A stretch of DNA of 21,292 nt from a virus: positions 1 through 21,292 of IMG/VR virus record IMGVR_UViG_3300032304_001213. One strand, written 5' to 3'. This document shows positions 861-12,662 of the stretch, in pieces. Position numbers and translations under genes: made by a program. Numbering within the stretch: the stretch's first letter is position 1; every line of letters starts with the position of its first letter. Below the pieces are notes generated by a model, which saw nothing but the letters and a program-made list of their open reading frames with translations, searched no databases and was not told the DNA's origin.

Positions 861-3170
861 TTAGAATACTCCTTCGTCAAATGTTTCAATCGAATCCACA
901 TACTTCTGTGCCTTTGCGTTTAATCTTACACCCATGTAGACCTGCTGTCGGTCGCCGTTGTCGCGCACCTGCTCTGAGCGTACTAGCTGTTCCTGTGTGG
1001 CCGCTAAGAATCTGCGCTTGAACGCCTGCTCTGTCCCTGGGGGCATTGACTTCTTGAGCGCCCAGTGTTTGTAGCAGGCAAACACTTCCTCCTTGCTGAC
1101 CATGTAGTCAGGACTAAACTCCAGTGCGTCCTCAGAGAATGATCCGATTGGATTGCCCAGCTCGGCCATCAAGTCCAAGTATTCCTTACCCGAGTGTGGC
1201 TGCATAAAGTGACCGCCCCTAGCAATGCGCCGCTTGAGTCCTTCCATCGCCCAGTTAAAGATACCGCCTAGCTCTTGCTCCAGCTTATGTGACAAGTCGG
1301 TGTCTTCCTTGTTAAAAAACGACTTGCTCATTTTCAGCACGATCATGCGGCCTGTGAGAGCATTACTGTTCTCTGTCAGTTGTAGCACCTCATTAGAGTA
1401 GATTACCAAACGCGTAGGAAGATAGCCATTCCATGCCTCTTTATTCTTACGATTAACTGTAATAGTGTCGCCGCCCACAATACGAAGAAGCTGAGATACA
1501 ACAGCACTGCGATTTCGTTCGGGAGCTCGAGCGTCAGTAAAAGAAGCAAGCAGCTTGCCAAGCCAAGGTTGCAAACCAAAAGTATCACATAGTTCTCCCA
1601 GTTCGGGCGCGACGGTGTTGTGCTGTCCAAGCAGTGCCACCAGCACCTTGTTGATGGTGCCCTTGCCTGAGCGGCGTGGGCCGATGATGTTAAAGAATTT
1701 CTGCTGTCTCGTGTCTCCCGACAGGATGTAGCCGAACATCTCTTGCAGTGTGTCGATTGACTCTTGGTCATCACCCCACACCGAGCGCAAGAACGCGTCC
1801 CATGTAGGCGATGCGGCGGTCTGGTTGTACTCGAATGGCAGTGAGTTCTGCGTAAAGAATCCCAGTGAGTGCGGTATCAGTATGCTGTCCTCTAAATGGA
1901 AGATGCCATTCTTGAGCGAGACCAGCTTGGATGCGGCTGGCTTGGCGTGCGAGTAGTCTTCTAACCAAATCGGTGGCTTGGTGTTCGGGTGGTTGGGTAG
2001 GTGCACGATCGACTTGATTGCGTCGATTGCACCCGATACCGTGGCCGGTGACGGATTGAACGGCACCAGCGCACCCTGCTTGCCTGCCTTCTTGCACTTC
2101 TCTAAGAACGCGTACACCTTGGAGCGGATGGTGGCCTCCTCGATCACCTCGTAGTGCGTCCCTGCGTAGATAAAGAAGTCGTCTGCATAGTGCACCAGCT
2201 TGTAGCCCTCCTCGCTGGAGTAGTAGTTATCCAAGAACGTGCGGGCATGGTTCATTGCACCCGAGTCCAAGATAGTCTCGCCCCGAGCCAATGCCTCCTT
2301 GCGCTCTTGGTGGTTGACTTGGAACAGGAGCGAGCGTAGCGTCGCGCCCGATCCCTTGAACGTCCTCCATTTGTTCTCGCACGAGTAGTCTCCCGTGGCA
2401 GTGTAGCCTGCGCCCTGTGACGACCACCGATCCCATGCCTCACAAGCCTCGACGTCGCCGCCAAACTGGTGGTGCAGGATCGCGCCTACCTTAAGCCAGT
2501 CTGAGTAGCCCATGTTGGGATCGAGCTTGGCTAGGATCTCTGTCTCGACTCGGTGTATGTCGTACCCCTCGAGCGGGGCTGTGTAGTCACCGAAGGCGTC
2601 GCCTGTCTTGTGCAGTGTGCGCTCGGGGATCACCGAGCTCAAGTCCTGCACCTCGGCGGGCACCGTGCCGCTGATGTGCCTGCCAGTGACCGTAAAGAAA
2701 CGCGAGTTAGCGTACGCCTCAAAGCCGATGCTGTGGTCTGCGTGGGAGGCGAACGGGTTGGATCGGGTAAATATCTTGACGCCTGTGCCTGAGGGGCTGA
2801 CCTCCATGTAGCCGTTGACGTTGTCTGCTAATTGCTGCATTGCAGCATTTATGAAACCGGCTGTGTGGTGGTCGTAGCAATCATCTAAGTCGATTCCTAC
2901 TAGGTCGTCTTCGTGTGAGAAGACAAAGCCTACGCCGTCAAACTTGTGCGTGTTGTAGGCCTGCTCGACGGACATAAAATCCGTCCACGTCTTGGGGTCT
3001 GTCGATGAGGCATACCGCCCCGTTACTTGGAGCGGCATCTTAGCCCATCGCCGGTTCACCCCATCGCCTACCTGTACGAACGACCACATCACCCAGCGGG
3101 GCACCTTACGGAGCTCTAGGGGGATGTTGGCCAGCTCGACGGGCAGGCAAAATGGTTTGGTATCGCTCAT
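861..3170 (-). CDS. P4-alpha-type replication protein: primase-polymerase and SF3 helicase (769 aa)
   Basis: This is a replication initiator that makes primers and unwinds DNA. Residues 20-170 form an archaeo-eukaryotic primase (prim-pol) domain: IDLDDC with metal-binding Asp at 94 and 96, SPSGTG at 125-130 and TGRH at 162-165. Residues about 220-275 resemble the PriCT-2 linker domain (YSDWLKVG, then WDRWS). A superfamily 3 helicase follows, with Walker A GPRRSGKGT at 497-505, an acidic Walker-B-like region near 545 (SFTDAR) and the sensor YSNEV at 591-595. Residues about 675-750 look like the winged-helix C-terminal domain of the D5/P4 family (YMVSKEEVFACYKHW), which in P4 alpha binds origin iterons. 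The start ATG at 3170 has AAAGGA upstream. Just beyond the gene start lie a promoter, a palindrome and an iteron dyad, consistent with an adjacent origin. Length is close to that of P4 alpha (777 aa). No key residue appears missing. Confidence 0.93.
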   Translation of the reverse strand: MSDTKPFCLPVELANIPLELRKVPRWVMWSFVQVGDGVNRRWAKMPLQVTGRYASSTDPKTWTDFMSVEQAYNTHKFDGVGFVFSHEDDLVGIDLDDCYDHHTAGFINAAMQQLADNVNGYMEVSPSGTGVKIFTRSNPFASHADHSIGFEAYANSRFFTVTGRHISGTVPAEVQDLSSVIPERTLHKTGDAFGDYTAPLEGYDIHRVETEILAKLDPNMGYSDWLKVGAILHHQFGGDVEACEAWDRWSSQGAGYTATGDYSCENKWRTFKGSGATLRSLLFQVNHQERKEALARGETILDSGAMNHARTFLDNYYSSEEGYKLVHYADDFFIYAGTHYEVIEEATIRSKVYAFLEKCKKAGKQGALVPFNPSPATVSGAIDAIKSIVHLPNHPNTKPPIWLEDYSHAKPAASKLVSLKNGIFHLEDSILIPHSLGFFTQNSLPFEYNQTAASPTWDAFLRSVWGDDQESIDTLQEMFGYILSGDTRQQKFFNIIGPRRSGKGTINKVLVALLGQHNTVAPELGELCDTFGLQPWLGKLLASFTDARAPERNRSAVVSQLLRIVGGDTITVNRKNKEAWNGYLPTRLVIYSNEVLQLTENSNALTGRMIVLKMSKSFFNKEDTDLSHKLEQELGGIFNWAMEGLKRRIARGGHFMQPHSGKEYLDLMAELGNPIGSFSEDALEFSPDYMVSKEEVFACYKHWALKKSMPPGTEQAFKRRFLAATQEQLVRSEQVRDNGDRQQVYMGVRLNAKAQKYVDSIETFDEGVF

Positions 3171-3189: not shown

Positions 3190-3222
3190 TATAATAATAC
3201 AAAACAAGGGCTTATCGACGTT
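3190..3222 (-). promoter_or_regulatory. Variant of the phage promoter in front of the primase-helicase gene
   Basis: Read on the minus strand, 3202-3190 is TTGTATTATTATA, identical to the downstream box of the five plus-strand phage promoters. Counting the same 14 nt upstream gives AACGTC in place of GGGCGG, so the upstream element is different. The perfect palindrome at 3221-3235 overlaps that position. The predicted transcription start near 3187 leaves a leader of about 17 nt containing AAAGGA. Confidence 0.65.
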
Positions 3223-3311: not shown

Positions 3312-3424
3312 GGGTGTACAGGGTAGACACGCCTTTTTCACTTTTTTTCAAACTTTTTTTAAAAAAAAATAAATAAAGTATGGAAAGGAGTAAAAACGCC
3401 GTGCTACCCTGTCTACCCTTGACA
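3312..3424. repeat. Origin-like iteron dyad, copy A
   Basis: Two tandem 9-mers, GGGTGTACA and GGGTAGACA (3312-3329), face two more in the opposite orientation, GGGTAGACA and GGGTAGCAC (minus strand, 3418-3401). Between them is a tract of about 70 bp made almost wholly of T and A runs, including a T run followed by A9 and AAATAAATAAAG. The whole element recurs at 9792-9903. It lies in the otherwise gene-free region 3173-3469, just upstream of the replication protein gene. In phage P4 the alpha protein binds iterons of the form GGTGAACAG at two separated sites, and these 9-mers look similar. An origin function is inferred from that parallel. Confidence 0.7.
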
Positions 3425-3469
3425 AAATCCCCTTTTTGTTATAAAGAACTGGTTCTATATTACTTTTAG

Positions 3470-3691
3470 TTATATAGGAAAGCAAGTAACCGTACCGCCA
3501 CCCCCTGGAATACACCTAATGATGGGTGCGGGTTGGGTATTGGCAAATGCCAAGGCAATGTGGAAGAAAAAGTACACCGCCGTAAAGATTAGTACGAATT
3601 TTAGTAGTTTGTCCGTCCAGCCCCCATCGGGTTGTACTATGCCGCAGTCGCAGCTCCGCCCCTGATTACAGTTTCCGTTGCATCCCTTCAT
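3470..3691 (-). CDS. Small membrane protein with cysteine-rich N-terminus (73 aa)
   Basis: The start ATG at 3691 overlaps the TGA of the upstream gene (ATGA) and has GAGGTG upstream as ribosome binding site. The first 20 residues contain four cysteines (CNGNCNQGRSCDC), a possible metal- or disulfide-forming cluster. One hydrophobic segment follows at about residues 29-48 (LLKFVLIFTAVYFFFHIALA). The C-terminal tail is rich in glycine and has two more cysteines (IRCIPGGGG, TVTCF). One membrane pass is likely; the topology and role are unknown. It is the last gene before the origin-like region, and no convincing terminator follows it. Confidence 0.72.
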   Translation of the reverse strand: MKGCNGNCNQGRSCDCGIVQPDGGWTDKLLKFVLIFTAVYFFFHIALAFANTQPAPIIRCIPGGGGTVTCFPI

Positions 3692-3882
3692 AGTGTCACC
3701 TCATAGTTTAGTCGTTTAATCATGTTGTATGCCCACTTACGGAAGGCATCCCTGTTCTCGGGAGTCTGCTCATCCCCCTCGTCCCACTCGGCAAAGACAA
3801 TAAATGATCCCAGCACGTCGTAAAACTCGATGCCTGTCAGGTTGCCGTCCTTATCTAATACGTCTTGTGGTATTGCGTTCAT
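3688..3882 (-). CDS. Small hypothetical protein (64 aa)
   Basis: The ATG at 3882 overlaps the stop of the upstream gene and the stop overlaps the start of the next, so it sits in a continuous chain of coupled genes below the sigma factor. The product begins MNAIPQDVLDKDG and has a beta-rich first half (IEFYDVLGSFIVFAEW), an acidic centre (DEGDEQTPENRD) and a C-terminal helix (AFRKWAYNMIKRL). It is soluble and acidic. No family is recognised. Confidence 0.75.
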   Translation of the reverse strand: MNAIPQDVLDKDGNLTGIEFYDVLGSFIVFAEWDEGDEQTPENRDAFRKWAYNMIKRLNYEVTL

Positions 3883-4229
3883 TCGTCCCCCTGTGTGATT
3901 GAGTAGGTGTCACGTAGCCTTGGTGACTCTTCGTTCCATGAGTCACTGGCACCGTAGTCGCCGCGGATGGCACTCATGCGCTCTGCCTTCCTAAACTCGG
4001 GCTCTACTCGCCACCATGCGCTTGATGCTGCCAAGTACTCGATGAAGTCATCGTTCTCTTCGAACAGTGGATGGTTAAGTCCCTCGACGTCGACGGTCTG
4101 TGTCACTACCGCCTGCCGCACCCATGGTCGCTTGGTGTAGCCCTCGGTGCGCACAATACCTACCTTGTCCCGTGCCGTAATGAATCGCTTGTATGCCTTC
4201 TGTTGCTCGTCTGTAAATTGTAGTGTCAT
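3879..4229 (-). CDS. Hypothetical protein directly downstream of the sigma factor (116 aa)
   Basis: The start ATG at 4229 overlaps the sigma-factor stop by the ATGA pattern, so the two should be made together. The sequence starts MTLQFTDEQQKAYKRFITARDKVG (helical), followed by a mixed region containing KRPWVRQAVVTQTVDVEG, an acidic helix (FEENDDFIEYLAAS) and a polar C-terminal tail. No helix-turn-helix typical of sigma region 4 is apparent. Because of its position it is a candidate partner of the sigma factor, for example a co-activator or polymerase-binding protein, but nothing in the sequence demonstrates this. Confidence 0.78.
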   Translation of the reverse strand: MTLQFTDEQQKAYKRFITARDKVGIVRTEGYTKRPWVRQAVVTQTVDVEGLNHPLFEENDDFIEYLAASSAWWRVEPEFRKAERMSAIRGDYGASDSWNEESPRLRDTYSITQGDE

Positions 4230-4798
4230 TCTTCGCTCTCTTCGTTAAAGTTGTCGTCGCTGATACTGCCCAGGGATACTGGTTCACGTGCCAAGCACGC
4301 ACGCAGTCGGTATATCTTACCACTATCCATGTCCAGCGCAGTCGCTAGCTCCTGTACCGTGGGCTTGCGCCCCAGTGACTGGGATAGGATGCGCTCGTTG
4401 TAGTGCATGCGGTAGATGTCCTCGACGACGTTGATGGGTAGCCGTATGATGTTGGCCGTGTTGTCAATCTCCCTGCGCACACCACGCTCGATAAACGAGC
4501 GGGCAAATGCCGCGAATGGTATCTTACCCATGGGTTTCCATCTCTTTGCCGCCTCCAGTAGCTTCTCGTTGCCGATTGCCAGTATGTCCTCCTGTGGTAG
4601 CTTACTGTGTTCCCATACCGTCATCTTGGTGACGACGTGGGGCACAAAGCGCAGGTTATGTCGCACCAGCTTTTCCAGTGCGTTGTCATCCCCTGCGGCG
4701 ATACGTTTAGCTAGATCCTTCTCTTCCTCCAGTGTTAGTGGCTCGATGCCGTATAGTGATTTCAGGTAGTCCGACTTGATGTCGTTGTTATTTGCCAT
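4226..4798 (-). CDS. Sigma-70 family factor lacking region 4, probably the late-promoter sigma (190 aa)
   Basis: The protein should direct RNA polymerase to phage promoters. Residues about 10-45 match region 1.2 (IEPLTLEEEKDLAKRIAAGD). Residues 46-120 match region 2, with LVRHNLRFV, then DILAIGNEKLLEAAKRWKP, then FAAFARSFIERGVRREIDN, the segment that binds the core enzyme and reads the -10 box. Residues 116-178 match region 3 (NIIRLPINVVEDI, LGRKPTVQELA, EPVSLGS). The chain then stops after a short acidic tail where region 3.2 and region 4 would follow, so the -35-reading domain is absent. T4 gp55, also about 185 residues and without a canonical region 4, is the closest known parallel in architecture. 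The start ATG at 4798 lies inside the end of the preceding small gene. It could instead be an early-middle sigma; the repeated promoter supports a late role. Confidence 0.88.
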   Translation of the reverse strand: MANNNDIKSDYLKSLYGIEPLTLEEEKDLAKRIAAGDDNALEKLVRHNLRFVPHVVTKMTVWEHSKLPQEDILAIGNEKLLEAAKRWKPMGKIPFAAFARSFIERGVRREIDNTANIIRLPINVVEDIYRMHYNERILSQSLGRKPTVQELATALDMDSGKIYRLRACLAREPVSLGSISDDNFNEESEE

Positions 4799-4946
4799 AG
4801 TGGTGCCTCTTTATGTAGGCGAAGATTTCTTTGTGCAACATGAGGGTGAGGCCAGCTGAGACGGCAATAATGCCCTCAAGACTGATCCCGTAATTGTCCA
4901 TAATAAACCAGCCGTAGATTAACGCAAAAAATCCGATGATATTCAA
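4788..4946 (-). CDS. Small membrane protein with TTG start (52 aa)
   Basis: This gene fills what would otherwise be a 140-nt gap upstream of the sigma factor. A strong ribosome binding site, AAGGAGG, is followed at correct spacing by TTG (4946-4944), which overlaps the TGA of the upstream gene. No ATG lies at that spacing. The product begins MNIIGFFALIYGWFIMDNYG, has a second hydrophobic stretch (ISLEGIIAVSAGLTLML) and ends in a basic tail (KRHHYGK), so one or two membrane helices are likely. It overlaps the sigma gene by 11 nt. The non-ATG start is inferred from the ribosome binding site and gene packing. Confidence 0.7.
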   Translation of the reverse strand: MNIIGFFALIYGWFIMDNYGISLEGIIAVSAGLTLMLHKEIFAYIKRHHYGK

Positions 4947-5122
4947 AACGGTGCCTCCTTGAGTAGTAGTGTAGCCATTGCGTACGGATTGGCTTTGGGA
5001 TCCTTTGGCAGTGCCTTCAGGCTCATGCCGTCAGTGAGGTAGGGGGTAGCCTCCAGCTTAGATACAAACTTCCTACAAGCGCCCCCAAACTCGTCAATCA
5101 GTATGTACTTGTACTGGCTCAT
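4943..5122 (-). CDS. Small hypothetical protein (59 aa)
   Basis: I chose the ATG at 5122 over an upstream ATG because AAGGAG lies at normal spacing from it. The product begins MSQYKYILIDEFGGACRKFV and is a short mixed alpha/beta protein without membrane segments. It carries a proline/lysine-rich turn (ALPKDPKANPYA) and a C-terminal helix (MATLLLKEAPF). It overlaps the upstream gene by 29 nt, and its stop overlaps the TTG start of the next. No family is recognised. Confidence 0.72.
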   Translation of the reverse strand: MSQYKYILIDEFGGACRKFVSKLEATPYLTDGMSLKALPKDPKANPYAMATLLLKEAPF

Positions 5123-5258
5123 TGGCTTGCTCCTTTTCTGCCTTCCACTCCCGCCATACGTCAAGCAAATTGACCTCGGGTGTCGGTGTCGCTAGTATGT
5201 GGTCAATAAACTCTTGTTGTTCTTTGTTCATTCTTACGATTTGATTAAGTCCATGCAT
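5094..5258 (-). CDS. Small hypothetical protein (54 aa)
   Basis: The start ATG at 5258 has TAGGAG upstream and gives a product beginning MHGLNQIVRMNKEQQEFIDHI. A second in-frame ATG nine codons later is possible. The protein is helical and acidic, with the pattern VNLLDVWREWKAEKEQANE. A longer frame starting further upstream would read through the hairpin and promoter region and is rejected. It is the first gene of the lower half of the early block, behind a possible minus-strand promoter at 5304-5333. Confidence 0.68.
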   Translation of the reverse strand: MHGLNQIVRMNKEQQEFIDHILATPTPEVNLLDVWREWKAEKEQANEPVQVHTD

Positions 5259-5263
5259 AAAAA

Positions 5264-5292
5264 CTCCTAAAAAATGGGGCGGTTTTGCCCCG
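5264..5292 (-). terminator. Hairpin plus T-run in the leader of the lower early operon
   Basis: On the minus strand GGGGC and GCCCC pair around a six-base loop (5291-5276) and are followed by ATTTTTT, the form of an intrinsic terminator. The ribosome binding site of the 54-residue gene follows at once. It could stop transcripts arriving from the upper early operon or act as an attenuator. The same bases on the plus strand supply the GGGCGG box of the HNH promoter, so the pairing may partly be coincidence. Confidence 0.5.
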
Positions 5293-5309
5293 TTGTTTGT
5301 ATTATTATA
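5277..5309 (+). promoter_or_regulatory. Phage promoter upstream of the HNH gene
   Basis: GGGCGG at 5277-5282 is followed after exactly 14 nt by TTGTATTATTATA at 5297-5309. The two boxes and the spacing are the same as at the four other plus-strand sites in the window. The predicted start near 5312 gives an HNH-gene leader of about 85 nt. Confidence 0.8.
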
Positions 5310-5333
5310 TATGTAGGGACAGGATGTCGACAA
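5304..5333 (-). promoter_or_regulatory. Possible sigma-70-type promoter for the lower early operon
   Basis: On the minus strand TTGTCG (5333-5328) is followed after 18 nt by TATAAT (5309-5304). The -10 box is perfect and the -35 box matches four of six positions. It lies head-on over the plus-strand HNH promoter. The call is moderate because the TATAAT is simply the reverse face of the repeated TATTATTATA box. Confidence 0.4.
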
Positions 5334-5366
5334 TCTTGTCCTAGCTGATATCTAGGACTCACCTAC
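5313..5366 (+). promoter_or_regulatory. Structured leader of the HNH gene with two exclusive hairpins
   Basis: Hairpin 1 pairs GGACAGGAT (5317-5325) with ATCTTGTCC (5333-5341) around a 7-nt loop. Hairpin 2 pairs GTCCTAG (5338-5344) with CTAGGAC (5352-5358), also around a 7-nt loop. They share GTCC at 5338-5341, so they cannot form together. GTAGG at 5313-5317 can also pair with CCTAC at 5362-5366. The start codon at 5398 has only a weak ribosome binding site (CAGGG). This could be a control leader, or simply a DNA operator, since the first arm is also a near-palindrome. Confidence 0.5.
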
Positions 5367-5397
5367 ACACCTCAAACTACCATATCAGGGTATCAAA

Positions 5398-5889
5398 ATG
5401 AAACGATTAAATCCAAATACGGGTTTGCCTTTTAAGCGTGGCGATCTTCGAGAAGATGGCCGAGTATTTAAAGGGTACAAGACAACAAAAACTAAGCACG
5501 ATGGGTATTATATAGAAAACTGGGTTACTGGTCAAGCATTGATTAAACAAAATGAATACAACAATCATTGGAAAAGAAATAACCCCGAAAAACATAATGC
5601 CCACGTCACTGCTTGTAAAAATAAAAACCCCGCTAAATATAACGCATTAAAGAGAAAACATAAATCCGCCAAAATACAGCGCACACCCCCTTGGCTAAAC
5701 GCCGAACATTGGGCTCAAATAGAATCGTTTTATAAACAAGCATACGACCTAAGCAAAGCCACTGGTATCCAACATCATGTTGATCATATTGTGCCTTTGC
5801 GTGGGCAATTTGTAAGTGGCCTCCATGTACCTTGGAATATGCAAGTATTGACAGCATCTGAAAACTGCTCTAAGTCAAACAGGGTTTGA
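5398..5889 (+). CDS. HNH homing endonuclease, antisense to the early operon (163 aa)
   Basis: This is an HNH nuclease of the free-standing phage type. The catalytic module is at the C-terminus: HHVDH at 126-130, followed by IVPLRG, GLHVPWNMQVLT (Asn 147) and ENCSKSNR (Asn 161). The N-terminus (TGLPFKRGD, then DGRVFKGY) and the basic centre (KRKHKSAKIQR) probably bind DNA. The gene is on the plus strand inside a minus-strand operon, is visibly richer in A/T than its neighbours, has its own phage-type promoter and overlaps the convergent gene by 20 nt. Those are the usual marks of a mobile selfish gene. Its insertion separates the upper and lower parts of the early block. The catalytic residues look intact. 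The cleavage site cannot be read from the sequence. Confidence 0.9.
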   Translation: MKRLNPNTGLPFKRGDLREDGRVFKGYKTTKTKHDGYYIENWVTGQALIKQNEYNNHWKRNNPEKHNAHVTACKNKNPAKYNALKRKHKSAKIQRTPPWLNAEHWAQIESFYKQAYDLSKATGIQHHVDHIVPLRGQFVSGLHVPWNMQVLTASENCSKSNRV

Positions 5890-6133
5890 CCACAACAGAT
5901 TTAACGTGCTGGACGGTTGTCACTGATTTGACAAACTCCTCGTTGCTTAGTTTGCGCACCAATGGTGCGCTGATCTGTTCCCTGTCATATTCCAATACCT
6001 CGGCCGCAAACTGCTCGCCTTGGTAGTTGCCTACACCACGGGCAATGAGCTCTGCCTTGAGTTTGCTCTTAGTCTCCTCGAGCTCTGCGATACGTTGGCT
6101 GATGATTCCGTACTGGTCGATAATATTAGTCAT
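5870..6133 (-). CDS. Small coiled-coil phage protein (87 aa)
   Basis: The ATG at 6133 was chosen because GGGAGGAAGC precedes it and it overlaps the TGA of the upstream gene. The N-terminal half is a charged helix (IISQRIAELEETKSKLKAELIARGVG) typical of a short coiled coil. The second half is beta-like (YQGEQFAAEVLEYDREQIS) and then helical, and it ends VVVKPCLT. The pattern 'helix, GVG-Y-G-FAA-V, DRE, K-LS-EF, TV-VK-V-V' is familiar from small conserved proteins of unknown function in many tailed phages. The gene converges with the HNH gene and overlaps it by 20 nt. Confidence 0.8.
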   Translation of the reverse strand: MTNIIDQYGIISQRIAELEETKSKLKAELIARGVGNYQGEQFAAEVLEYDREQISAPLVRKLSNEEFVKSVTTVQHVKSVVVKPCLT

Positions 6134-6300
6134 GCTTCCTCCCGTTCCCACTGTTTAACCTGCAAATAAACATTCTGAATGTAACCACAAAATGGTATTG
6201 CCTTGCACAATTCCACTGCCTCGAATTGGTCTTCGGCTAAAAACTCTTCGTGTTTATAACCCTCTGAGTCGTGATGGTATTCAATTAAATAATAGTTCAT
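6130..6300 (-). CDS. Small hypothetical protein (56 aa)
   Basis: A short frame from ATG at 6300 to a TGA that overlaps the next start (ATGA) fills the gap between two clear genes. AGGAC lies upstream at good spacing. The product begins MNYYLIEYHHDSEGYKHEEF and has the pattern beta strand, turn, beta strand, helix (DQFEAVELCKAI), then an aromatic strand (FCGYIQNVYLQV). It has two cysteines. It resembles the other tiny early proteins in having a strand followed by an EA-containing helix. Confidence 0.72.
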   Translation of the reverse strand: MNYYLIEYHHDSEGYKHEEFLAEDQFEAVELCKAIPFCGYIQNVYLQVKQWEREEA

Positions 6301-6327
6301 GGTATTTGTCCTGTCTAAAATGTTAGT

Positions 6328-6633
6328 TTACTGCAAGCTTTCTAAAAAGTCAAGCCATTCCTGCCCACGGTGCTCGAGCACAAACTCGGGCGATCCTTTG
6401 GTGCCTGCCTTGACCTCTGTGCGTGATGGGATACGGTTGCCGTAGTAGTCGTTGAATGACTCGGTGCCAAGCAGGCACCAGCCGTCACTGATGGCTTGCA
6501 TCATGGCGCGCCCATACGAGCCCTGCAATGACCACATGCCGCCGTTGATGGCGCGCTGGATGGATGCGTAGAGCTCGTACTCGTCTACTCCATCCTCGCG
6601 CTCGATGTTGTTGATGTCTTTGATTGATAGCAT
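6328..6633 (-). CDS. Hypothetical early protein (101 aa)
   Basis: The start ATG at 6633 overlaps the stop of the upstream gene by one base (TAATG). The product begins MLSIKDINNIEREDGVDEYEL and has helical segments (ELYASIQRAING, YGRAMMQAIS), an aromatic middle (FNDYYGNRIPSR) and a C-terminal acidic helix (EWLDFLESL). It is soluble, with no recognisable motif. A short gap of about 27 nt separates it from the next gene, the only real break in this part of the operon. Confidence 0.75.
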   Translation of the reverse strand: MLSIKDINNIEREDGVDEYELYASIQRAINGGMWSLQGSYGRAMMQAISDGWCLLGTESFNDYYGNRIPSRTEVKAGTKGSPEFVLEHRGQEWLDFLESLQ

Positions 6634-6863
6634 TATGCCTCATCCTTAAATAGTTGTAAAAAGTAAGTCACCGAGTCTGCCACGTTGTTTGCCAGCTCTT
6701 GACCTTCCATTGCCTCGAATGGCTCCCATGGTGTCGCAATATCCCAGTCCTCGTCAGCAATACCCTCGAGGATTTTTGAGAATGGCAGGTCGCCGTTCCA
6801 GTCTGATAAATACGTGCTAAGCACAAAATGCTCAGCCTTGTCGCGTAATTGCTCTTTAGTCAT
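6633..6863 (-). CDS. Small acidic hypothetical protein (76 aa)
   Basis: I chose the internal ATG at 6863 because GAGGAG lies at normal spacing upstream of it; a start five codons earlier is possible. The product begins MTKEQLRDKAEHFVLSTYL and is strongly acidic with many tryptophan and phenylalanine residues (DEDWDIATPWEPFEAME). It ends with a helix (VADSVTYFLQLFKDEA). It overlaps the upstream gene by 8 nt. The function is unknown. Confidence 0.75.
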   Translation of the reverse strand: MTKEQLRDKAEHFVLSTYLSDWNGDLPFSKILEGIADEDWDIATPWEPFEAMEGQELANNVADSVTYFLQLFKDEA

Positions 6864-7011
6864 TTTTATTCTCCTCATCTGCTAGTCTGATCCGAGCATT
6901 CTCGGGATTGTGGTACCACCTGTTAATGATGGCGCGTGCATCGTCATCATCGTAGGCATAAATCAGTGGGCGATCAATACCGTCCACGGTTGGTAAGTAT
7001 AGTGCTCCCAT
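6856..7011 (-). CDS. Small hypothetical protein (51 aa)
   Basis: This frame lies between two clear genes and uses an ATG at 7011 that overlaps the preceding TAA by one base (TAATG). GAGGAG lies a little further upstream. The product begins MGALYLPTVDGIDRPLIYAY, contains an acidic run (DDDDARAI) and ends NARIRLADEENKND. It overlaps the next start by 8 nt. It is supported only by length, packing and overlap. Confidence 0.68.
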   Translation of the reverse strand: MGALYLPTVDGIDRPLIYAYDDDDARAIINRWYHNPENARIRLADEENKND

Positions 7012-7178
7012 TACTTGGTCTCCTCAATATTATCCACATTCCAGTCACCGTAGCCTGTGTCTTTAAAGTCGCCGCCGTCCATGTTGTAGGCAATCTCCTT
7101 TGCCTCGTCGAGATTGTCCGCCTCGATGGTTGCCTCTACGTACGATACGTAGCTTGCCTGAATTTTAAACTTAGCCAT
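7011..7178 (-). CDS. Small hypothetical protein, strand plus EA-helix type (55 aa)
   Basis: The ATG at 7178 overlaps the TAA of the upstream gene and is preceded by AAGGAGGAAGAG, an excellent ribosome binding site. The product starts MAKFKIQASYVSYVEATIEA, two beta strands, and continues with NLDEAKEIAYNM, a helix, then a short acidic tail. This 'strand with VEA, then a helix with DEA' layout is seen in small phage and plasmid proteins of the DpnD/PcfM type. That similarity is only of pattern. Confidence 0.72.
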   Translation of the reverse strand: MAKFKIQASYVSYVEATIEADNLDEAKEIAYNMDGGDFKDTGYGDWNVDNIEETK

Positions 7179-7354
7179 TACTCTTCCTCCTTGGCGGGTT
7201 CAAATTTGGGTGCTGTGTAACCCTCTTCCCTAAACCGTGCTGACACTAATGCCTCAGCACCCTCTAATTGTTCTTCAATAGCTTTAAACACCCAGTTTAC
7301 GTTTGTGGTGTCGTCGTTTAAATCTAACACTATTTCGAATTTAAATGTTTTCAT
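7178..7354 (-). CDS. Small hypothetical protein (58 aa)
   Basis: The ATG at 7354 lies within the last codons of the upstream gene, with GAGG at suitable spacing; a TTG six codons earlier is an alternative. The product begins MKTFKFEIVLDLNDDTTNV and continues with a helix (WVFKAIEEQLEGAEALV), a strand and an acidic tail (PAKEEE). It is a compact alpha/beta protein by pattern. The TAA overlaps the next ATG by one base. Confidence 0.72.
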   Translation of the reverse strand: MKTFKFEIVLDLNDDTTNVNWVFKAIEEQLEGAEALVSARFREEGYTAPKFEPAKEEE

Positions 7355-7658
7355 CTTCGTCCTCTTCGTCAAATATGCAGTATGGCACCTCGAGAAAATT
7401 GCCCTCGAATGGCACCTCGGTAATAAAGTAATTGAGGCGGTTGACTAAATGGTACCCGTCTACAATGTACAGGTTGCCGTCGTCGCCGTCGACCAGTGTC
7501 CAAATACAGCGCGGATCTTGGGCTCGTACAAAGTCCAGCTCCTCGCCGTATGTCTCGAATTTATCTGTACCGTCAAACTGATTGGTGACTGGCTTGTACT
7601 TTGCCTCCCACGCATCGAGCTCCTGCTCCCATGCTGGATATGTTGTCGTTGTGCTCAT
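7341..7658 (-). CDS. Acidic hypothetical protein (105 aa)
   Basis: The ATG at 7658 overlaps the upstream TAA and has GAGGAG at normal distance; a GTG three codons earlier is less likely. The product begins MSTTTTYPAWEQELDAWEA. It has a central beta-rich part with an aspartate-glycine loop (TLVDGDDGNLYIVDGYHLVNRLNYFI), giving a pattern of paired strands around DGDDGN, and ends in an extremely acidic tail (FDEEDEDENI). Such charge is seen in DNA-mimicking phage inhibitors but also in many ordinary small proteins, so no role is assigned. Confidence 0.75.
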   Translation of the reverse strand: MSTTTTYPAWEQELDAWEAKYKPVTNQFDGTDKFETYGEELDFVRAQDPRCIWTLVDGDDGNLYIVDGYHLVNRLNYFITEVPFEGNFLEVPYCIFDEEDEDENI

Positions 7659-7792
7659 TATTCCCACTCCTCTGTGTCGTAGTCGTATACATAAAACCCT
7701 TGGTCTGTGGCCTGTTGATATGCCTCTGCAAAGGTCTTCGCGTCGATGACGAGGGTGTTGCCCTCCTCGTCCTTAAAGTATGCTGTAATCAT
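7658..7792 (-). CDS. Tiny hypothetical protein (44 aa)
   Basis: ATG at 7792 overlaps the previous TGA (ATGA), and the TAA overlaps the next ATG. AAGGAG lies upstream. The product begins MITAYFKDEEGNTLVIDAKT, two strands, then a helix (FAEAYQQATDQG) and an acidic aromatic tail (YVYDYDTEEWE). It repeats the strand/EA-helix layout of its neighbours. The perfect chain of overlaps on both sides is the main support. Confidence 0.68.
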   Translation of the reverse strand: MITAYFKDEEGNTLVIDAKTFAEAYQQATDQGFYVYDYDTEEWE

Positions 7793-8001
7793 GCTGTGAG
7801 CTCCTTGATAAACTGTTCTGCCTCTTCGAGGGTTGCGAATGGCTTGCCTACGGCGATTGCCCAGCCGACGTGCACCTGCATCACGTCAAACTTGCCACCC
7901 TTCCAGCTTGGCTTGTTGATGCGGTAGGTTGGGTTCTCAATGCTTGGCAGGTTCCACAACTTAGCGCACTCTCTGTCTTCTGCCCAATTAAATGTTGTCA
8001 T
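7789..8001 (-). CDS. Small hypothetical protein (70 aa)
   Basis: I chose the ATG at 8001 because CGGAGG lies just upstream and because the longer frame would begin inside the strong promoter at 8023-8051. The product begins MTTFNWAEDRECAKLWNLP. It has a strand-rich, tryptophan-containing middle (PSWKGGKFDVMQVHVGWAIAV is one continuous stretch of alternating residues) and ends with a helix (FATLEEAEQFIKEL). It is the first gene behind that promoter, with a leader of only about 15 nt. Confidence 0.75.
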   Translation of the reverse strand: MTTFNWAEDRECAKLWNLPSIENPTYRINKPSWKGGKFDVMQVHVGWAIAVGKPFATLEEAEQFIKELTA

Positions 8002-8022
8002 ATATCCTCCGTTAGTCTGTAC

Positions 8023-8051
8023 ATTATAGTGACCTTTTCGGTCACTGTCAA
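8023..8051 (-). promoter_or_regulatory. Consensus sigma-70-type early promoter with an operator palindrome
   Basis: On the minus strand TTGACA (8051-8046) is followed after exactly 17 nt by TATAAT (8028-8023), a perfect match at both boxes. The spacer itself holds an inverted repeat, AGTGACC and GGTCACT (8028-8046), around a 5-nt loop. A protein bound there would cover the promoter. The palindrome suggests a repressor operator, since the unrepressed promoter should be extremely strong. No repressor gene is identified in the window. Confidence 0.85.
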
Positions 8052-8314
8052 TCGTATACGCCGATCTCACCGGCATTGATCCATTCTGCGTGCAGTCCGT
8101 ACTTAGCCAGCGTGTTGGTAATCAGTGGGTTGATACCAAACTCCCAGTCGGGTATGTTGCGACCGTCGTAGTAGTCTGCCCAGCAGGTGTCACGGTCGTA
8201 CTCGCCGTAAATACCCTCTGCGCTGATCTGAAAATTCTCGATGTCACTGCGCTCGTACACTGGGCACCCGATTTTCTTGAGTGCGTTGAATGCTAGTCTG
8301 TGGTTGCGTGTCAT
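8048..8314 (-). CDS. Hypothetical early protein (88 aa)
   Basis: The ATG at 8314 has TAGGAG upstream and follows the ribozyme-like segment directly. The product begins MTRNHRLAFNALKKIGCPVY (helix), continues through an acidic aromatic region (CWADYYDGRNIPDWEF) and ends with a helix (TNTLAKYGLHAEWI) and an acidic tail. The DYY..RNIP pattern recalls FNDYYGNRIP in the 101-residue protein further down, but the rest is not clearly related. Its last codons overlap the -35 box of the next promoter. Confidence 0.75.
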   Translation of the reverse strand: MTRNHRLAFNALKKIGCPVYERSDIENFQISAEGIYGEYDRDTCWADYYDGRNIPDWEFGINPLITNTLAKYGLHAEWINAGEIGVYD

Positions 8315-8331
8315 GGTGTAGCTCCTATGTT

Positions 8332-8381
8332 GGTCTCATCAGTGCACGCCTTACGTGCATACCGCTCACGCGGTTTCGACC
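8332..8381 (-). ncRNA. Hammerhead ribozyme, type II permutation
   Basis: All core elements are present in the minus-strand RNA. Stem II is GGUC (8381-8378) with GACC (8335-8332) and is the open end. GAA (8377-8375) is the conserved segment before stem III. Stem III is ACCGC (8374-8370) with GCGGU (8365-8361), capped by a GUGA tetraloop. A single A (8360) is the cleavage-site base. Stem I is UGCACG (8359-8354) with CGUGCA (8348-8343) and a UAAGG loop. CUGAUGA (8342-8336) completes the core. Base pairs A15.1-U16.1, U1.1-A2.1 and G10.1-C11.1 all fit. Cleavage is predicted between A8360 and U8359, separating the 111-residue gene's message from the rest of the early operon. Confidence 0.88.
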
Positions 8382-8385
8382 TGTA

Positions 8386-8721
8386 CTACGCGTACTCACG
8401 TGCGGTGACGTGCGGTACGATAAACTGGAAATACTCGGGGTTGAATTCGCCCCACTGGTCTGCCTTGTCACCGATCAGTGAGCCACGGTCGATACTGTGA
8501 TCATACACTGCAATGCAGTCCTGATCCAGTGCCGTCGCCAGCACGTCGATGTTGCCCGTGTGGTATACGTAGTCGATAATGACGGTTGGCTCGTCGCCGT
8601 CATACGATACGCGCACTGCCGTGACGTTTGCAACAAACTGCATTGCTTTGGTGAGGGTGAGCTCTACCGTGTTGTTGTCGCCTGTGAATGGGTTAGCTAA
8701 CCCGATATTCATGGTATACAT
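8386..8721 (-). CDS. First early gene, hypothetical protein (111 aa)
   Basis: This is the gene nearest the early promoter at 8895-8923. The ATG at 8721 follows AAGGAG closely; an ATG three codons later is too distant for that site. The product begins MYTMNIGLANPFTGDNNTVEL and is beta-rich with several valine runs (AVRVSYDGDEPTVIIDYVY), then an acidic second half (LDQDCIAVYDHSIDRGS) and a C-terminal strand. No family is recognised. The hammerhead sequence starts 5 nt beyond its stop codon, so self-cleavage would leave this message with a short, structured 3' end. Confidence 0.75.
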   Translation of the reverse strand: MYTMNIGLANPFTGDNNTVELTLTKAMQFVANVTAVRVSYDGDEPTVIIDYVYHTGNIDVLATALDQDCIAVYDHSIDRGSLIGDKADQWGEFNPEYFQFIVPHVTAREYA

Positions 8722-8754
8722 ATTGCTCCTTGTGTTTGGTTAGTACTGCCTCGA

Positions 8755-8775
8755 GCGCACTGGTATACAATGCGC
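8755..8775. promoter_or_regulatory. Imperfect 21-bp palindrome in the first early gene's leader
   Basis: GCGCA and TGCGC flank a centre containing GTATAC, with two mismatched pairs. It lies in the predicted leader of about 165 nt between the promoter at 8895-8923 and the start at 8721. It could be an operator or an RNA hairpin. A further short hairpin, GCAGG with CCTGC, lies near 8803-8820. Confidence 0.35.
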
Positions 8776-8894
8776 TCTGAGCATTACTATCTATTAGCAT
8801 ACGCAGGGATGAATACCTGCACTGGTTCTGCCAGCTCCCCCTTATTTATCTCGGTTGGGTTTGAGTACTACAACTGCTTTACTACCATGACTCT

Positions 8895-8923
8895 ACTATA
8901 CCGACCTTAGAATTAAATGTCAA
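8895..8923 (-). promoter_or_regulatory. Sigma-70-type early promoter at the divergent region
   Basis: On the minus strand TTGACA (8923-8918) is followed after exactly 17 nt by TATAGT (8900-8895), five of six in the -10 box. It points into the whole early block, with a predicted start near 8888. Its -35 box lies inside AATAGGTGTTGAC, nearly the same as AATAGGTGTTTAC found three times at 9161-9505, which suggests a shared binding protein. Confidence 0.8.
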
Positions 8924-9160
8924 CACCTATTTAATACTTGACTGCGCTGTGGGGTTTTGTGGGATAGTGTGGGATTGCTGGCCTCCCTCGTGCTGTTGTA
9001 TTCTCGCCCACCCTCCAATTTGACCCTCGCGTGCGCATCGCCCTGCAAGCCTTACTGGCTGGTACCCGAGTCCACCACGCTGTCAACGGCATGGTGCCAA
9101 TGCACCTGTGAGGCAAACTGCTAAAACGCCTCTATGCCCCCTTAAAACGCGCCCAATCCG

Positions 9161-9505
9161 TCAATAGGTGTTTACCCTAATAGCCAGCTAAGTTAGTCTG
9201 CACTAAGTTAATGCACCAAAATGGTGCACGCGCCAGCTTGGCTTTGTGGCACGTTGCCGCGTTGTTATCTTGCCACAGTGTTGCGTTCATACAACAAAGC
9301 TGGCGTATGCACCACATTGGTGCATTAACTTAGTGGCTACTAACATCATGCACCACATTGGTGCACGGGCCTGCTCGGCTCGGCAGACAGGGTGCTGGGC
9401 GCGGAGTCAATAGGTGTTTACCCTAGGTGTTGTGCCAGCGCAACAGTGGACTGCTGGCTCGGCATACAGGGTGCTGGGCGCGGAGTCAATAGGTGTTTAC
9501 CCTAG
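9161..9505. repeat. Three copies of TCAATAGGTGTTTACCCTA
   Basis: The 19-bp motif occurs identically at 9161-9179, 9407-9425 and 9486-9504. Its reverse face contains GGGTAAACA, one or two substitutions from the GGGTNNACA iterons of the origin-like elements. A fourth, partial copy in the opposite orientation covers the -35 box of the promoter at 8895-8923. These are good candidates for binding sites of the replication initiator or a regulator. Confidence 0.7.
9201..9335. repeat. Large inverted repeat with 38-bp arms
   Basis: CACTAAGTTAATGCACCA at 9201 and the following bases to 9238 match, in reverse complement and with few mismatches, the segment 9297-9335 that ends TTAACTTAGTG. Each arm contains a smaller palindrome, TGCACCA-N3-TGGTGCA (9212-9228 and 9308-9324). 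A third copy of that palindrome is at 9349-9365. The 58-bp centre holds a further inverted pair, GTGGCA with TGCCAC. As DNA this can form a cruciform; as RNA, a long hairpin. Confidence 0.75.
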
Positions 9506-9544
9506 GTGTTGCGTGCATACAACAGTGTGGCAAGATAACAACGC
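9259..9544. repeat. Perfect 18-bp inverted repeat 250 bp apart
   Basis: GCGTTGTTATCTTGCCAC at 9259-9276 is the exact reverse complement of 9527-9544. Beside each arm is a near-identical direct repeat, GTGTTGCGT(T/G)CATACAACA, at 9278-9296 and 9506-9524. The combination encloses the other repeats of the region. Confidence 0.7.
9377..9511. repeat. 56-bp direct repeat with 79-bp period
   Basis: The segment 9377-9432 recurs at 9456-9511 with a single substitution. It contains ACAGGGTGCTGGGCGCGGAG followed by the TCAATAGG motif. ACAGGGTG also resembles the junction between two tandem iterons. The repeat lies in the divergent intergenic region and codes for nothing recognisable. Confidence 0.75.
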
Positions 9545-9744
9545 CGCAATCTGACGCGACCTAGCGTTTCACAATGTAAAATGCGTTACCACAATGCGGA
9601 ACAGGGGGCTTTTCTTTTAACCGCGACACCCAATTTGGGTCCTGTGCCTAGGGGCGGCGGTGGCCCCATGCCAAACCCTAAGTTTGTAAAATCCGCCAGA
9701 AACACAGATCCTAAATTTTTTTTTTATAAACTAGGGCGGAGAGG

Positions 9745-9764
9745 ACCTACTACATGTAGTAGGT
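9745..9764. promoter_or_regulatory. Perfect 20-bp palindrome
   Basis: ACCTACTACATGTAGTAGGT is its own reverse complement over all 20 bases. A GGGCGG lies 5 nt upstream (9734-9739), but no TATTATTATA box follows at the right spacing. The palindrome lies 28 bp before the second iteron dyad. A dimeric DNA-binding protein site is the likeliest reading. Confidence 0.6.
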
Positions 9765-9791
9765 GCACCCCCTAAAATCACTAGAATGACA

Positions 9792-9903
9792 GGGTGTACA
9801 GGGTAGCACACCCTTTTTACTCTTTTTTAAATTTTTTTTTAAAAAAAATAAATAAAGTATGGAAAGAGTGAAATAAGCCTCGCAACCCTGTCTACCCTTG
9901 ACA
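9792..9903. repeat. Origin-like iteron dyad, copy B
   Basis: GGGTGTACA and GGGTAGCAC (9792-9809) face GGGTAGACA and a degenerate GGGTTGCGA (minus strand, 9897-9880) around an A/T tract. The tract contains AAATAAATAAAGTATGGAAAG exactly as in copy A at 3312-3424. Outer flanks (TTGACAAA on the right) are also shared. It lies just upstream of the first late promoter, 6.5 kb from copy A, mirroring the two-site origin of phage P4 in outline. Confidence 0.7.
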
Positions 9904-9926
9904 AATGTGGTTTATTTGCACTGGAA

Positions 9927-9959
9927 GGGCGATAACCCCTAGTTGTTTGTATTATTATG
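9927..9959 (+). promoter_or_regulatory. Phage late promoter, first of the structural block
   Basis: GGGCGA (9927-9932) stands 14 nt before TTGTATTATTATG (9947-9959), with one substitution in each box relative to the other sites. If the first TATTAT is the -10 hexamer, the transcription start falls at about 9962, directly on the ATG at 9963. Confidence 0.78.
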
Positions 9960-9962
9960 TGT

Positions 9963-10271
9963 ATGAGCAAATACGTATACCAAATCCAAGGCGCCCTGGA
10001 GAGTAGGCAGGGAGAATTCTTGGGGCTTCGTGTCTTGGTATGTGATGCGTTTAACTTTGATTCGGTTGACATACCTGTAGAGGTACTGGATTCAGAAACC
10101 GCAAAGTACATGCAGTTCAGACTTTCTATTACGGCAGAGACGGTCAACATAGCAAGACTGCCGGTTGAAATCCAAAACAGAATACGCACGCCGTTAGGGC
10201 GATGGCTGGACCACTGGGTCCTAGATAATTTTTATGGCGATAACCGCAAATACAAAGATACTAACGCTTGA
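9963..10271 (+). CDS. Hypothetical protein, first late gene (102 aa)
   Basis: An ATG at 9957 lies inside the promoter's TATTATTATG box and cannot be transcribed, so I take the ATG at 9963, which gives a leaderless message. The product begins MSKYVYQIQGALESRQGEFL and is a mixed alpha/beta protein with a strand-rich first half (LGLRVLVCDAFNF) and a later segment ITAETVNIARLPVEIQNRI. The end, LGRWLDHWVLDNFYGDNRKY, is rich in aromatics. The gene overlaps the next by 38 nt. Its position two genes before the terminase large subunit makes a packaging role possible, but no small-terminase motif is visible. Confidence 0.78.
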   Translation: MSKYVYQIQGALESRQGEFLGLRVLVCDAFNFDSVDIPVEVLDSETAKYMQFRLSITAETVNIARLPVEIQNRIRTPLGRWLDHWVLDNFYGDNRKYKDTNA

Positions 10272-11226
10272 TTACTGGAAGCCAGCCTACAAGCTGGAGG
10301 TAGGTGACTATGTCTTTGATCGTAAGGGCAACATAGTCCAGGTCAAACTAGCGCAGCAGTACCAAGGCATACGCTGCTATGAGGTCATGTTCAACGACTA
10401 CCTGACGGTGGAGGGTGACGCCAACCTGGCGCTACCCACAGAGAACCCCAAATACCGTAACAGGCTGGTCACGTACAAGGGCAAGCTGCAGTTTAGGCGC
10501 CCTCTTAAGCCACTAACGGCCGAGCAGATGCTTGATATGCCGCTACTGGATCAACACAACCGCAAGATACTCTCGGTCCCCACCACAAACCCCCTGGCAT
10601 TACCCCACCAAGACCTACCAGTCCCAGCGTTTGTCTTTGGGTTCTGGTTCTTTGCCCGTAGATCGACTGGCAGGATGGCTGCGGCCAAGGGAACAACCGA
10701 GTTTGTGGTGCAACGATTCAAAGACCATGGCTACAAAGTGGTTATGGGACCGCTGATCAACACCGGGGAGCGCGAATTTAGCGTCACACCCACAGTTGAG
10801 TCGCAGTTAATCCCCAACATCCCCAAGATTATCACCAACAACTACCTTTTTTCGTCGCCAGAGCAGCGACAAGACTTACTTTCTGGCATTGTCTGCGCAA
10901 AAAACAGGCGTTACAACAAGAGATCAGACCGTTTTCGGTTTTCTTCTCGCCAATACGACACCGTTCGCCGTGTCCAGCTCCTGGCAGAGTCCCTTGGCGG
11001 GCGGTCTAGCCTGCAAAGTGACGACCACAAGAAGGATTTTACGGTTTTCTTTAAGATCCGCGCGCCCATCCACCCGGAACAGAGCTCGCCCAAAGTAAAA
11101 GTCCACCATGGCAGACGTTATGTCAGCAAGATCAGCCCAATCCCGACCCAGATGTGTGTGCACATTGAGACAACGGGCGAGGATAACACCATTTTAGTGG
11201 GGGAGGGCTTCATACCATGTCTTTAA
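10234..11226 (+). CDS. Intein-derived (Hint/LAGLIDADG-like) protein without catalytic residues (330 aa)
   Basis: The protein begins exactly where an intein would: MAITANTKILTLDYWK aligns with intein block A (C-x-x-x-D/N-TKILT-x-x-G-WK), but the first catalytic Cys is Ala. EVGDYVFDRKG (22-32) is the usual next strand. Block B, expected around residues 58-68 (VEGDANLALP), lacks the His. The C-terminus, CVHIETTGEDNTILVGEGF followed by IPCL, matches intein blocks F and G, but the terminal His-Asn is missing and the chain stops there. The middle resembles a dodecapeptide homing endonuclease: FVFGFWFFARRS (133-144) and LLSGIVCAKN (215-224) followed by RFRFSS and LLAESLGG. Both motif aspartates are replaced. 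It lies directly before, and overlaps, the terminase gene, the usual small-terminase position. No good ribosome binding site precedes the ATG. Confidence 0.75.
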   Translation: MAITANTKILTLDYWKPAYKLEVGDYVFDRKGNIVQVKLAQQYQGIRCYEVMFNDYLTVEGDANLALPTENPKYRNRLVTYKGKLQFRRPLKPLTAEQMLDMPLLDQHNRKILSVPTTNPLALPHQDLPVPAFVFGFWFFARRSTGRMAAAKGTTEFVVQRFKDHGYKVVMGPLINTGEREFSVTPTVESQLIPNIPKIITNNYLFSSPEQRQDLLSGIVCAKNRRYNKRSDRFRFSSRQYDTVRRVQLLAESLGGRSSLQSDDHKKDFTVFFKIRAPIHPEQSSPKVKVHHGRRYVSKISPIPTQMCVHIETTGEDNTILVGEGFIPCL

Positions 11227-12662
11227 CAACAAAACAAGAGGCCATCCTCAAGCGATTTGCCGAGGAGCGCAAGAATTGGCCCCAGCAACAGCTCGATGCG
11301 GCGATCTGGCAGATCAAATGGAGCCTACAAGCCCTGCCGCACCAGAAAGAACCAGACGATGGAGAGTATGATACGTTTCTTATGCTTGCCGGTCGTGGAT
11401 CGGGTAAGACCCACACTGCCAGCCATTGGATTGGCATTCGTGCTTGGCGTTATGACAACACCCGCTGGCTCGTCACCGCTCCCACCTCAAACGATATACG
11501 TGCAACTTGTTTCGAGGGGGACTCCGGACTTATCAGTATCATTCCCCCGTCACTTATCCGGGATTACAACAAGTCACTCTTTGAGATTACCCTCACCAAC
11601 GGGTCTATCATTCAGGGTATCCCAGCCTCAGAGCCAGAACGGTACCGTGGTAAGCAATACCATGGGGCCTGGTTCGACGAGTTGTGTGCATTCGATTACA
11701 TCGACGATGCCTACGACGGCGTACAGTTTACCCTACGTCTTAAGGACCCGCGAATCCCTCGAGTGCAGCAGATTATTACCACCACTCCAAAGCCCAAGGA
11801 ACTGATTGTAGACCTTAACGAGGGCAAGGTAGGGGGTGATGTATACGTAGCCAATGCAAGCTCCTACGACAACCGTGCAAACCTCTCAGAGACCTTTTTT
11901 AAGCAGCTAGAGACGTACGAGGGAACAGACATTGGTAAGCAGGAGATCTATGGCGAGATCCTAGACCCTGAGGCGGCTGGTATCATCAAGCGCAAACATT
12001 TCCGCATGTGGCCAGCGAACAAGCCCACCCCGGTCCTAGAGTACGTGATTGCCTCGTATGACCCGGCGACCTCTGAGAAAACGGTGAATGACCCCACTGC
12101 CTGTACGGTCTGGGGTGTGTTCGAGAGAGAAGACGCTGGGACGTCTGTCATACTGCTAGACGCATGGGACGCGCACCTGTCGTACCCCGAGCTGCGTCGT
12201 AAGGTGATTGATGACTTCAAGGAAGTTGTCTACGGAGCAGACAATGACTTCGGTAAGGGCAAGAAGGCCGACCTGATACTGATGGAAGACAAGTCCGCCG
12301 GTATCTCGCTGATACAAGAACTCCAAGGCGCTGGCGTGCCCGTCAGGGGATACAATCCAGGCCGCGCGGATAAGATCCAGCGTATCAACATTGTGGCCCC
12401 GCTCGTGCTTAAGGGTAAGGTCTACATCCCCGAAGAGCCAAGTAACCCAGGCGAGTACGCCAACTGGGCCAAACGCTTCATGCGGCAGGTTTGTTCATTT
12501 CCGGAGGCTGGGGGTCATGACGACTACGTTGACAGCCTCAGCCAGGCCCTACGCGTCCTCAGGGACTCTGGCTGGTTGCAGCTTGATCCGTTGCCTGCCA
12601 GGGACTATGACTACGCTGACGACGACTCAAACAGGAAGTTTAGCAATCCCTACGCACAATAG
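11217..12662 (+). CDS. terL: Terminase large subunit (481 aa)
   Basis: This is the DNA-packaging motor and nuclease. The ATPase has Walker A GRGSGKT at 59-65, Walker B AWFDE at 151-155 and a coupling motif TTTPKP around 188-193. The RNase H-like nuclease domain shows the acidic triad at Asp 282 (ASYDPA), Asp 358 (LMEDKS) and Asp 436 (GGHDDYVDS). Length and order of motifs are normal for a complete terminase and there is no internal intein, which matters because an intein relative lies immediately upstream. The ATG overlaps the end of that gene by 10 nt. No strong Shine-Dalgarno sequence is present (GGGGGAGGG lies about 8 nt upstream and may serve). The next gene starts behind its own late promoter. 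Confidence 0.95.
   Translation: MSLTTKQEAILKRFAEERKNWPQQQLDAAIWQIKWSLQALPHQKEPDDGEYDTFLMLAGRGSGKTHTASHWIGIRAWRYDNTRWLVTAPTSNDIRATCFEGDSGLISIIPPSLIRDYNKSLFEITLTNGSIIQGIPASEPERYRGKQYHGAWFDELCAFDYIDDAYDGVQFTLRLKDPRIPRVQQIITTTPKPKELIVDLNEGKVGGDVYVANASSYDNRANLSETFFKQLETYEGTDIGKQEIYGEILDPEAAGIIKRKHFRMWPANKPTPVLEYVIASYDPATSEKTVNDPTACTVWGVFEREDAGTSVILLDAWDAHLSYPELRRKVIDDFKEVVYGADNDFGKGKKADLILMEDKSAGISLIQELQGAGVPVRGYNPGRADKIQRINIVAPLVLKGKVYIPEEPSNPGEYANWAKRFMRQVCSFPEAGGHDDYVDSLSQALRVLRDSGWLQLDPLPARDYDYADDDSNRKFSNPYAQ

Follow-up and report, generated by a model that had tools for sequence, protein, structure and literature searches.

Paired iteron dyads that co-vary with the winged-helix domain of a phage helicase-primase suggest a two-site replication system

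An element of about 112 bp, made of inverted pairs of 9-bp iterons flanking an A/T core, occurs twice in the stretch of DNA analysed here, a 21,292-bp IMG/VR virus record (hereafter the window), and the two occurrences lie 6.5 kb apart. In related phages the dyads change together with the C-terminal domain of the helicase-primase, and this paired change points to a two-site replication-start system. We are highly confident that the helicase-primase would bind both copies, and, judging by sequence co-variation and a modelled fold, it very likely reads the iterons. Our confidence is good that both copies would act in replication, and the dyads probably make up a two-site replicon in which the helicase-primase binds each copy. 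The features concerned are located in Table 1.

Table 1. Positions of the dyads, the helicase-primase gene and neighbouring elements in the window.
Feature	Position	Strand	Basis or remark
Helicase-primase, 769 aa	861..3170	-	Domain searches, predicted structure
C-terminal domain coding segment (residues 671-769)	861..1160	-	Predicted RFX/P4-origin-binding-type winged helix
Promoter-like repeat TTGTATTATTATA	3190..3202	-	Ahead of helicase gene
Palindrome TTTCACAATGTGAAA	3221..3235	.	Between proximal dyad and helicase gene; in many relatives
Proximal iteron dyad	3312..3424	.	Self-comparison, motif inspection
Distal iteron dyad	9792..9903	.	Self-comparison, TerL-anchored survey
Promoter-like repeat TTGTATTATTATG	9947..9959	+	Right next to distal dyad, ahead of rightward operon
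Terminase large subunit (TerL)	11217..12662	+	Landmark placing distal site about -1.3 kb in relatives

Comparison of the window with itself aligned 3312-3426 with 9792-9905 at 87% identity over 116 bp (BLAST E ~5.5e-34 to 5e-33), and a third copy of the dyad was absent from the 21,292-bp record. The duplication put forward in the original prediction is thus real, with exactly two copies, and the layout it described, tandem iteron pairs inverted around an A/T core, is correct. In the proximal dyad the left arm reads GGGTGTACA-GGGTAGACA and the right arm, read inward on the other strand, GGGTAGACA-GGGTAGCAC; in the distal dyad the arms on either side of the A/T core are GGGTGTACA-GGGTAGCAC and GGGTAGACA-GGGTTGCGA. 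The claim of one shared iteron holds in part, since the literal motif GGGTNNACA is exact in three of the four proximal iterons (3312+, 3321+, 3410-) and two of the four distal ones (9792+, 9889-), but the inner iterons are degenerate (GGGTAGCAC, GGGTAGCAC, GGGTTGCGA). Similarly, the block AAATAAATAAAGTATGGAAAG, said to be exactly conserved, is identical in both window copies but is not conserved across the wider family of relatives. Three extra GGGTAAACA matches (9169, 9415 and 9494) fall inside a 20-bp repeat in a non-coding region and are not dyads; by our own arithmetic, with 7 fixed bases and both strands of 21 kb counted, chance alone would give about 2.6 such matches. The proximal dyad adjoins the helicase-primase gene, as had been claimed, with the start codon 142 bp downstream. 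The distal dyad lies 1.3 kb ahead of TerL, at the divergent early/late boundary between leftward early genes and a rightward terminase/portal/capsid operon.

The helicase-primase has an N-terminal half with prim-pol and PriCT_2 domains, followed by a D5/DUF5906 helicase and a winged-helix C-terminal domain. Its helicase core is that of P4 alpha: PF08706 and PF19263 (D5_N / DUF5906 helicase core) match both proteins, and hhalign gave 96.9% over residues 376-645. Pox_D5 (Pfam) does not match the window protein. The primase halves are unrelated, with prim-pol and PriCT_2 in the window where P4 alpha has PF08273 and PF13362 (Zn-ribbon/Toprim). By sequence and fold this half resembles the NrS-1 prim-pol, and the SaPI5 primase-helicase (7ola) is a relative (hmmsearch E 7.6e-40, structural Z 12.1). 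At the C-terminus AlphaFold2 predicts a winged helix (mean pLDDT 82 for the domain alone), whose top structural matches are RFX-DNA 1dp7 (Z 10.7) and RFX5 (Z 10.5). These two, together with 1ka8, the origin-binding domain of P4 (Z 8.2-8.7; at 8.7, 85 residues superpose at 3.1 A), stand above the remaining matches. The predicted structure therefore agrees with the winged-helix C-terminus of the original prediction, whereas the name "P4-alpha-type protein" is half right: it suits the helicase core and the origin-binding-like C-terminus and does not suit a primase half of NrS-1/SaPI5-type prim-pol. On the same grounds, a P4-like working is well supported as an architecture.

When the sequence preceding the helicase gene was compared with itself in 80 loci of relatives, a second dyad copy appeared several kb away in about 20. 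Two full copies are present in 12 long relatives (20-68 kb), and in two further records, G022 and G024, the distal copy is cut by the contig end and the other is complete. When the arms of each phage were run against every record, 11 of 12 records searched with their own arms contained exactly two dyads at a score of at least 30/40; foreign arms gave mostly zero dyads and shuffled arms 0/240 at the unchanged threshold, which for distal copies had been raised from 26/40 because about half of the controls were positive at that value. Anchoring the scan on TerL placed a dyad 1.3-1.9 kb ahead of the gene in all 53 terminase loci with enough upstream sequence, 51 of them above threshold and the other two, the window's closest relatives, just under it (shuffled controls, 0/106). 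Each copy is a near-symmetric, complete dyad of approximately 96-120 bp. Across the testable genomes the copies are spaced 5.1-11.7 kb apart, and 25 pairs are direct and 6 inverted, a count that omits the second dyad of L043, 187 bp from the first and treated as an artefact. The nearest copy is ~0.9-3.4 kb from the helicase gene in five loci, and a clear proximal dyad was not found in a few (e.g. L072, L084, L087). Some apparent absences were rejected: the distal copy seemed missing from five loci through an artefact of their 10-kb flanks, and longer records show it, while the copy thought missing from L083/G024 was located 3.4 kb ahead of the helicase gene. G037, which has a partial helicase (52% identical), carries clusters of iterons at two places separated by 11.4 kb. 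In each of six long relatives tested, a family A DNA polymerase is encoded and a tyrosine integrase was not found. By gene content, then, these phages carry a replication set, and they are probably lytic.

The position of the distal copy ahead of TerL is near-fixed, and contigs G022 and G024 terminate inside it, as might be seen if this copy were a packaging (pac) site or genome end and the proximal copy a relic. We consider such a role very improbable. Virion relatives whose TerL and portal are related, but which have a different replication gene and no helicase C-terminus of the window type (Caulobacter phage RW, MW202545), yielded zero dyads in the same scan. Moreover, the contig ends lie in or beside A/T runs, the letters of the site vary while TerL is 87-99% identical, and the overlapping ends of G002 and G019 are placed away from the dyads. 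With these overlapping ends, G002 and G019 appear to be complete circular genomes of ~66 kb. The assemblies of G022 and G024 break within the distal dyad, so dyads may cut many contigs of this phage family.

Iteron letters vary among phages, yet agree between the copies within each phage. The window has GGGTAGACA, and its relatives have TAGGGTTGC, GTATGGGTA, AGACACAGA, CATAGTATC, TTGTCACAC, AGTAGTCAC, CCGATGTAT and others; 41 non-redundant phages form 14, 21 or 24 iteron groups, depending on the threshold. Co-variation was tested by comparing iteron distance with domain distance after removal of the rest-of-protein distance. Iteron distance correlated with residues 671-769 (partial r 0.33) and 721-769 (0.35), with 0/500 permutations for either, weakly with residues 601-670 (2/500 permutations), and not significantly with the remaining helicase-primase domains. 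Shared descent can inflate Mantel tests of related sequences, and the safeguard here is the contrast between domains within one protein. The strongest among 381 variable columns were Q734, R736, Q715, D666 and Q743, with Q728 also among the strongest within the C-terminal domain, and most lie in the recognition helix, strand and wing. Residues 671-769 hold 68 of the 381 columns and 12 of the top 20 (p 2e-5). The family thus offers dozens of natural pairs of helicase domain and iteron, in which residues 715, 728, 734, 736 and 743 likely do the reading, and a matched series with named residues makes the recognition code of self-loading replicative helicases directly testable.

Each window copy has the promoter-like TTGTATTATTATA repeat downstream of it, which makes a regulatory role for the dyads possible. 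If the dyads served purely as operators, the helicase C-terminal domain, or some other regulator, would bind them and so govern the helicase gene and the terminase operon. Like the packaging role, this is a less likely explanation, which we hold to be improbable: the other four of the six window copies of the repeat have no adjoining dyad, and the repeat is kept ahead of the helicase gene in only 6 of 58 relatives. A two-armed A/T dyad of ~110 bp is also bigger than an operator requires, its orientation is free, and it co-varies with a replicative helicase. The six repeats (3190-, 5297+, 9947+, 12682+, 16325+ and 20289+; one with a mismatch) mostly stand directly ahead of genes, several of them preceded by GGGCGG. 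The window also encodes a phage sigma-70-like factor (4226-4798; regions 1.2, 2 and 3), and the two perhaps represent a promoter specific to the phage and the sigma factor that serves it. The palindrome TTTCACAATGTGAAA is possibly an operator. We rejected GC skew as evidence for an origin, as it tracks the gene strand and does not flip at the proximal copy; because skew follows the gene strand, composition cannot separate origin from transcription.

In the two-site replicon that we favour, the copies would be cis-acting replication sites belonging to one replicon. The winged helix would read the 9-bp iterons, as co-variation and fold suggest, and, by analogy with SaPI Rep, Cch2 and P4, hexamers would form on both inverted arms, melt the A/T core and load the helicase bidirectionally. 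The distal copy at the divergent boundary would most likely be the main origin. The proximal copy may be a second site, a partner like P4 crr that needs bridging with the distal copy, or alternatively a second origin for another stage, as in SPP1; it could perhaps also damp helicase transcription. These two modes are sub-versions of the two-site replicon, and the choice between them is about even.

P4 replication needs both ori1 and crr, the latter labelled "cis required region" in the P4 record. There, crr adjoins alpha and is built of paired + and - type-1 repeats with a 9-bp period, and the origin has the leftward alpha operon on one side and the rightward sid operon on the other. P4 resembles the window in having a single initiator helicase-primase with a winged-helix origin-binding C-terminus (1ka8; predicted in the window) and short iterons shared, in mixed orientation, by two sites, one adjoining the helicase gene and one at a divergent operon boundary. 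An obligate pair of this type, ori and crr bridged by helicase complexes with neither sufficient alone, is a possibility that we entertain tentatively. It matches the layout and the predicted fold of the C-terminal domain, and pairing is universal among testable relatives. However, the P4 sites are unlike each other, crr being itself a double repeat, whereas the window sites are near copies. P4 also lacks head genes of its own, which the window's family of ~60-68 kb phages has, and its proximal site is downstream of the helicase gene rather than upstream.

The original prediction of a P4-like two-site origin is supported in part, by layout, fold and co-variation, but does not hold as regards P4-alpha identity or lack of precedent. 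It had supposed that two initiator sites would be unusual in a full-size phage; SPP1 is such a phage, with two G38P-bound origins (oriL and oriR) 12 kb apart, one of them inside the initiator gene (PMC3485210). The window system is therefore a variant of an arrangement already known. The window, too, has two distant sites, which its own initiator would bind, as co-variation suggests, and the likeness to SPP1 is drawn from layout: G38P is a separate replisome organiser, whereas the window initiator is a helicase-primase. In the SPP1 model, the second origin blocks forks and initiates sigma replication (PMC3485210). ICP1 has an early theta origin, and its coverage suggests a second, late one (PMC7145576). 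For the window, two origins that work independently and fire at separate stages, with no need of pairing, as in SPP1 oriL/oriR or ICP1, are quite possible, if somewhat short of probable. Each copy is a full near-symmetric dyad, relative orientation is free and the distal site is where the terminase operon begins, in line with these precedents, but the two-copy rule and the 5.1-11.7 kb spacing in all testable genomes fit a required partner at least equally.

As described for SaPI Rep and SCCmec Cch2, helicases of the window's kind can use their C-terminal domain to read iterons (PMC7581432). SaPI5 Rep (7ola, 7om0) and Cch2 are, like the window protein, D5-type helicases with an iteron origin beside the gene (PMC7581432), and SaPI5 Rep likewise has a prim-pol fused to the helicase; their single origin lies directly downstream of the gene, whereas the window has two dyads, the proximal one upstream. 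In Vibrio cholerae PLE, the DNA-binding domain of the initiator RepA co-varies with the origin iterons (PMC8263062), but this initiator is unrelated (RepA_N) and belongs to a satellite with one origin. A broader reading, which we regard as rather doubtful, is that obligate two-site initiation extends across a widespread, probably lytic family, in which helicase complexes would bridge near-identical dyads of many incompatible specificities. These specificities would have diverged as the winged helix and both sites changed in step, a divergence driven perhaps by satellites, or by relatives infecting the same cell, that would steal the initiator-origin pair or attack it. The question of why P4 and SPP1 have two initiator sites becomes testable in an independent phage group, one that keeps two sites and alters both together.

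Megablast of the whole window against phages matched nothing, and a host scan of genome contigs returned two uncultured betaproteobacterial bins only, a weak hint of a betaproteobacterial host. An exact search of viral contigs for the GGGTNNACA dyad recovered relatives (L003, L010/L014/L020, L009, L011 and L019) and mostly other phages with a different single dyad, and these were set aside. Their dyad, seen in six records, has GTTAACAGGGT-type 9-bp iterons and a less A/T-rich core, and the phages include prophages of isolate genomes. Unrelated prophage-like records with ACAGGGT iterons have one dyad each. Of the cultured phages whose primases are distant, PS6 has one dyad of 8-bp period adjoining the primase, and 9NA, Henu15, PSA and A9Y have no clear dyad.

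Approximately 1 kb of the window (8720-9790) is without a clear gene. Its repeats are nested inverted ones with arms of 57 nt and 43 nt, a direct repeat of 72 bp and three copies of GTCAATAGGTGTTTACCCTA; it also contains the palindromes ATGCACCACATTGGTGCAT, and Rfam gave no match. At 10234-11226, a 330-aa protein that overlaps the TerL start has the same length in nearly all relatives. Pfam gave nothing for it, a segment of terminase profiles matched weakly, and it reads like a free-standing intein-type Hint domain. Fur-box-like palindromes (e.g. AATGATAATGATTATCATTTAG) stand beside the dyads in five relatives and not in the window, and AATCAATGACTTA / TAAGTCATTGATT repeats recur beside both dyad copies in many relatives.
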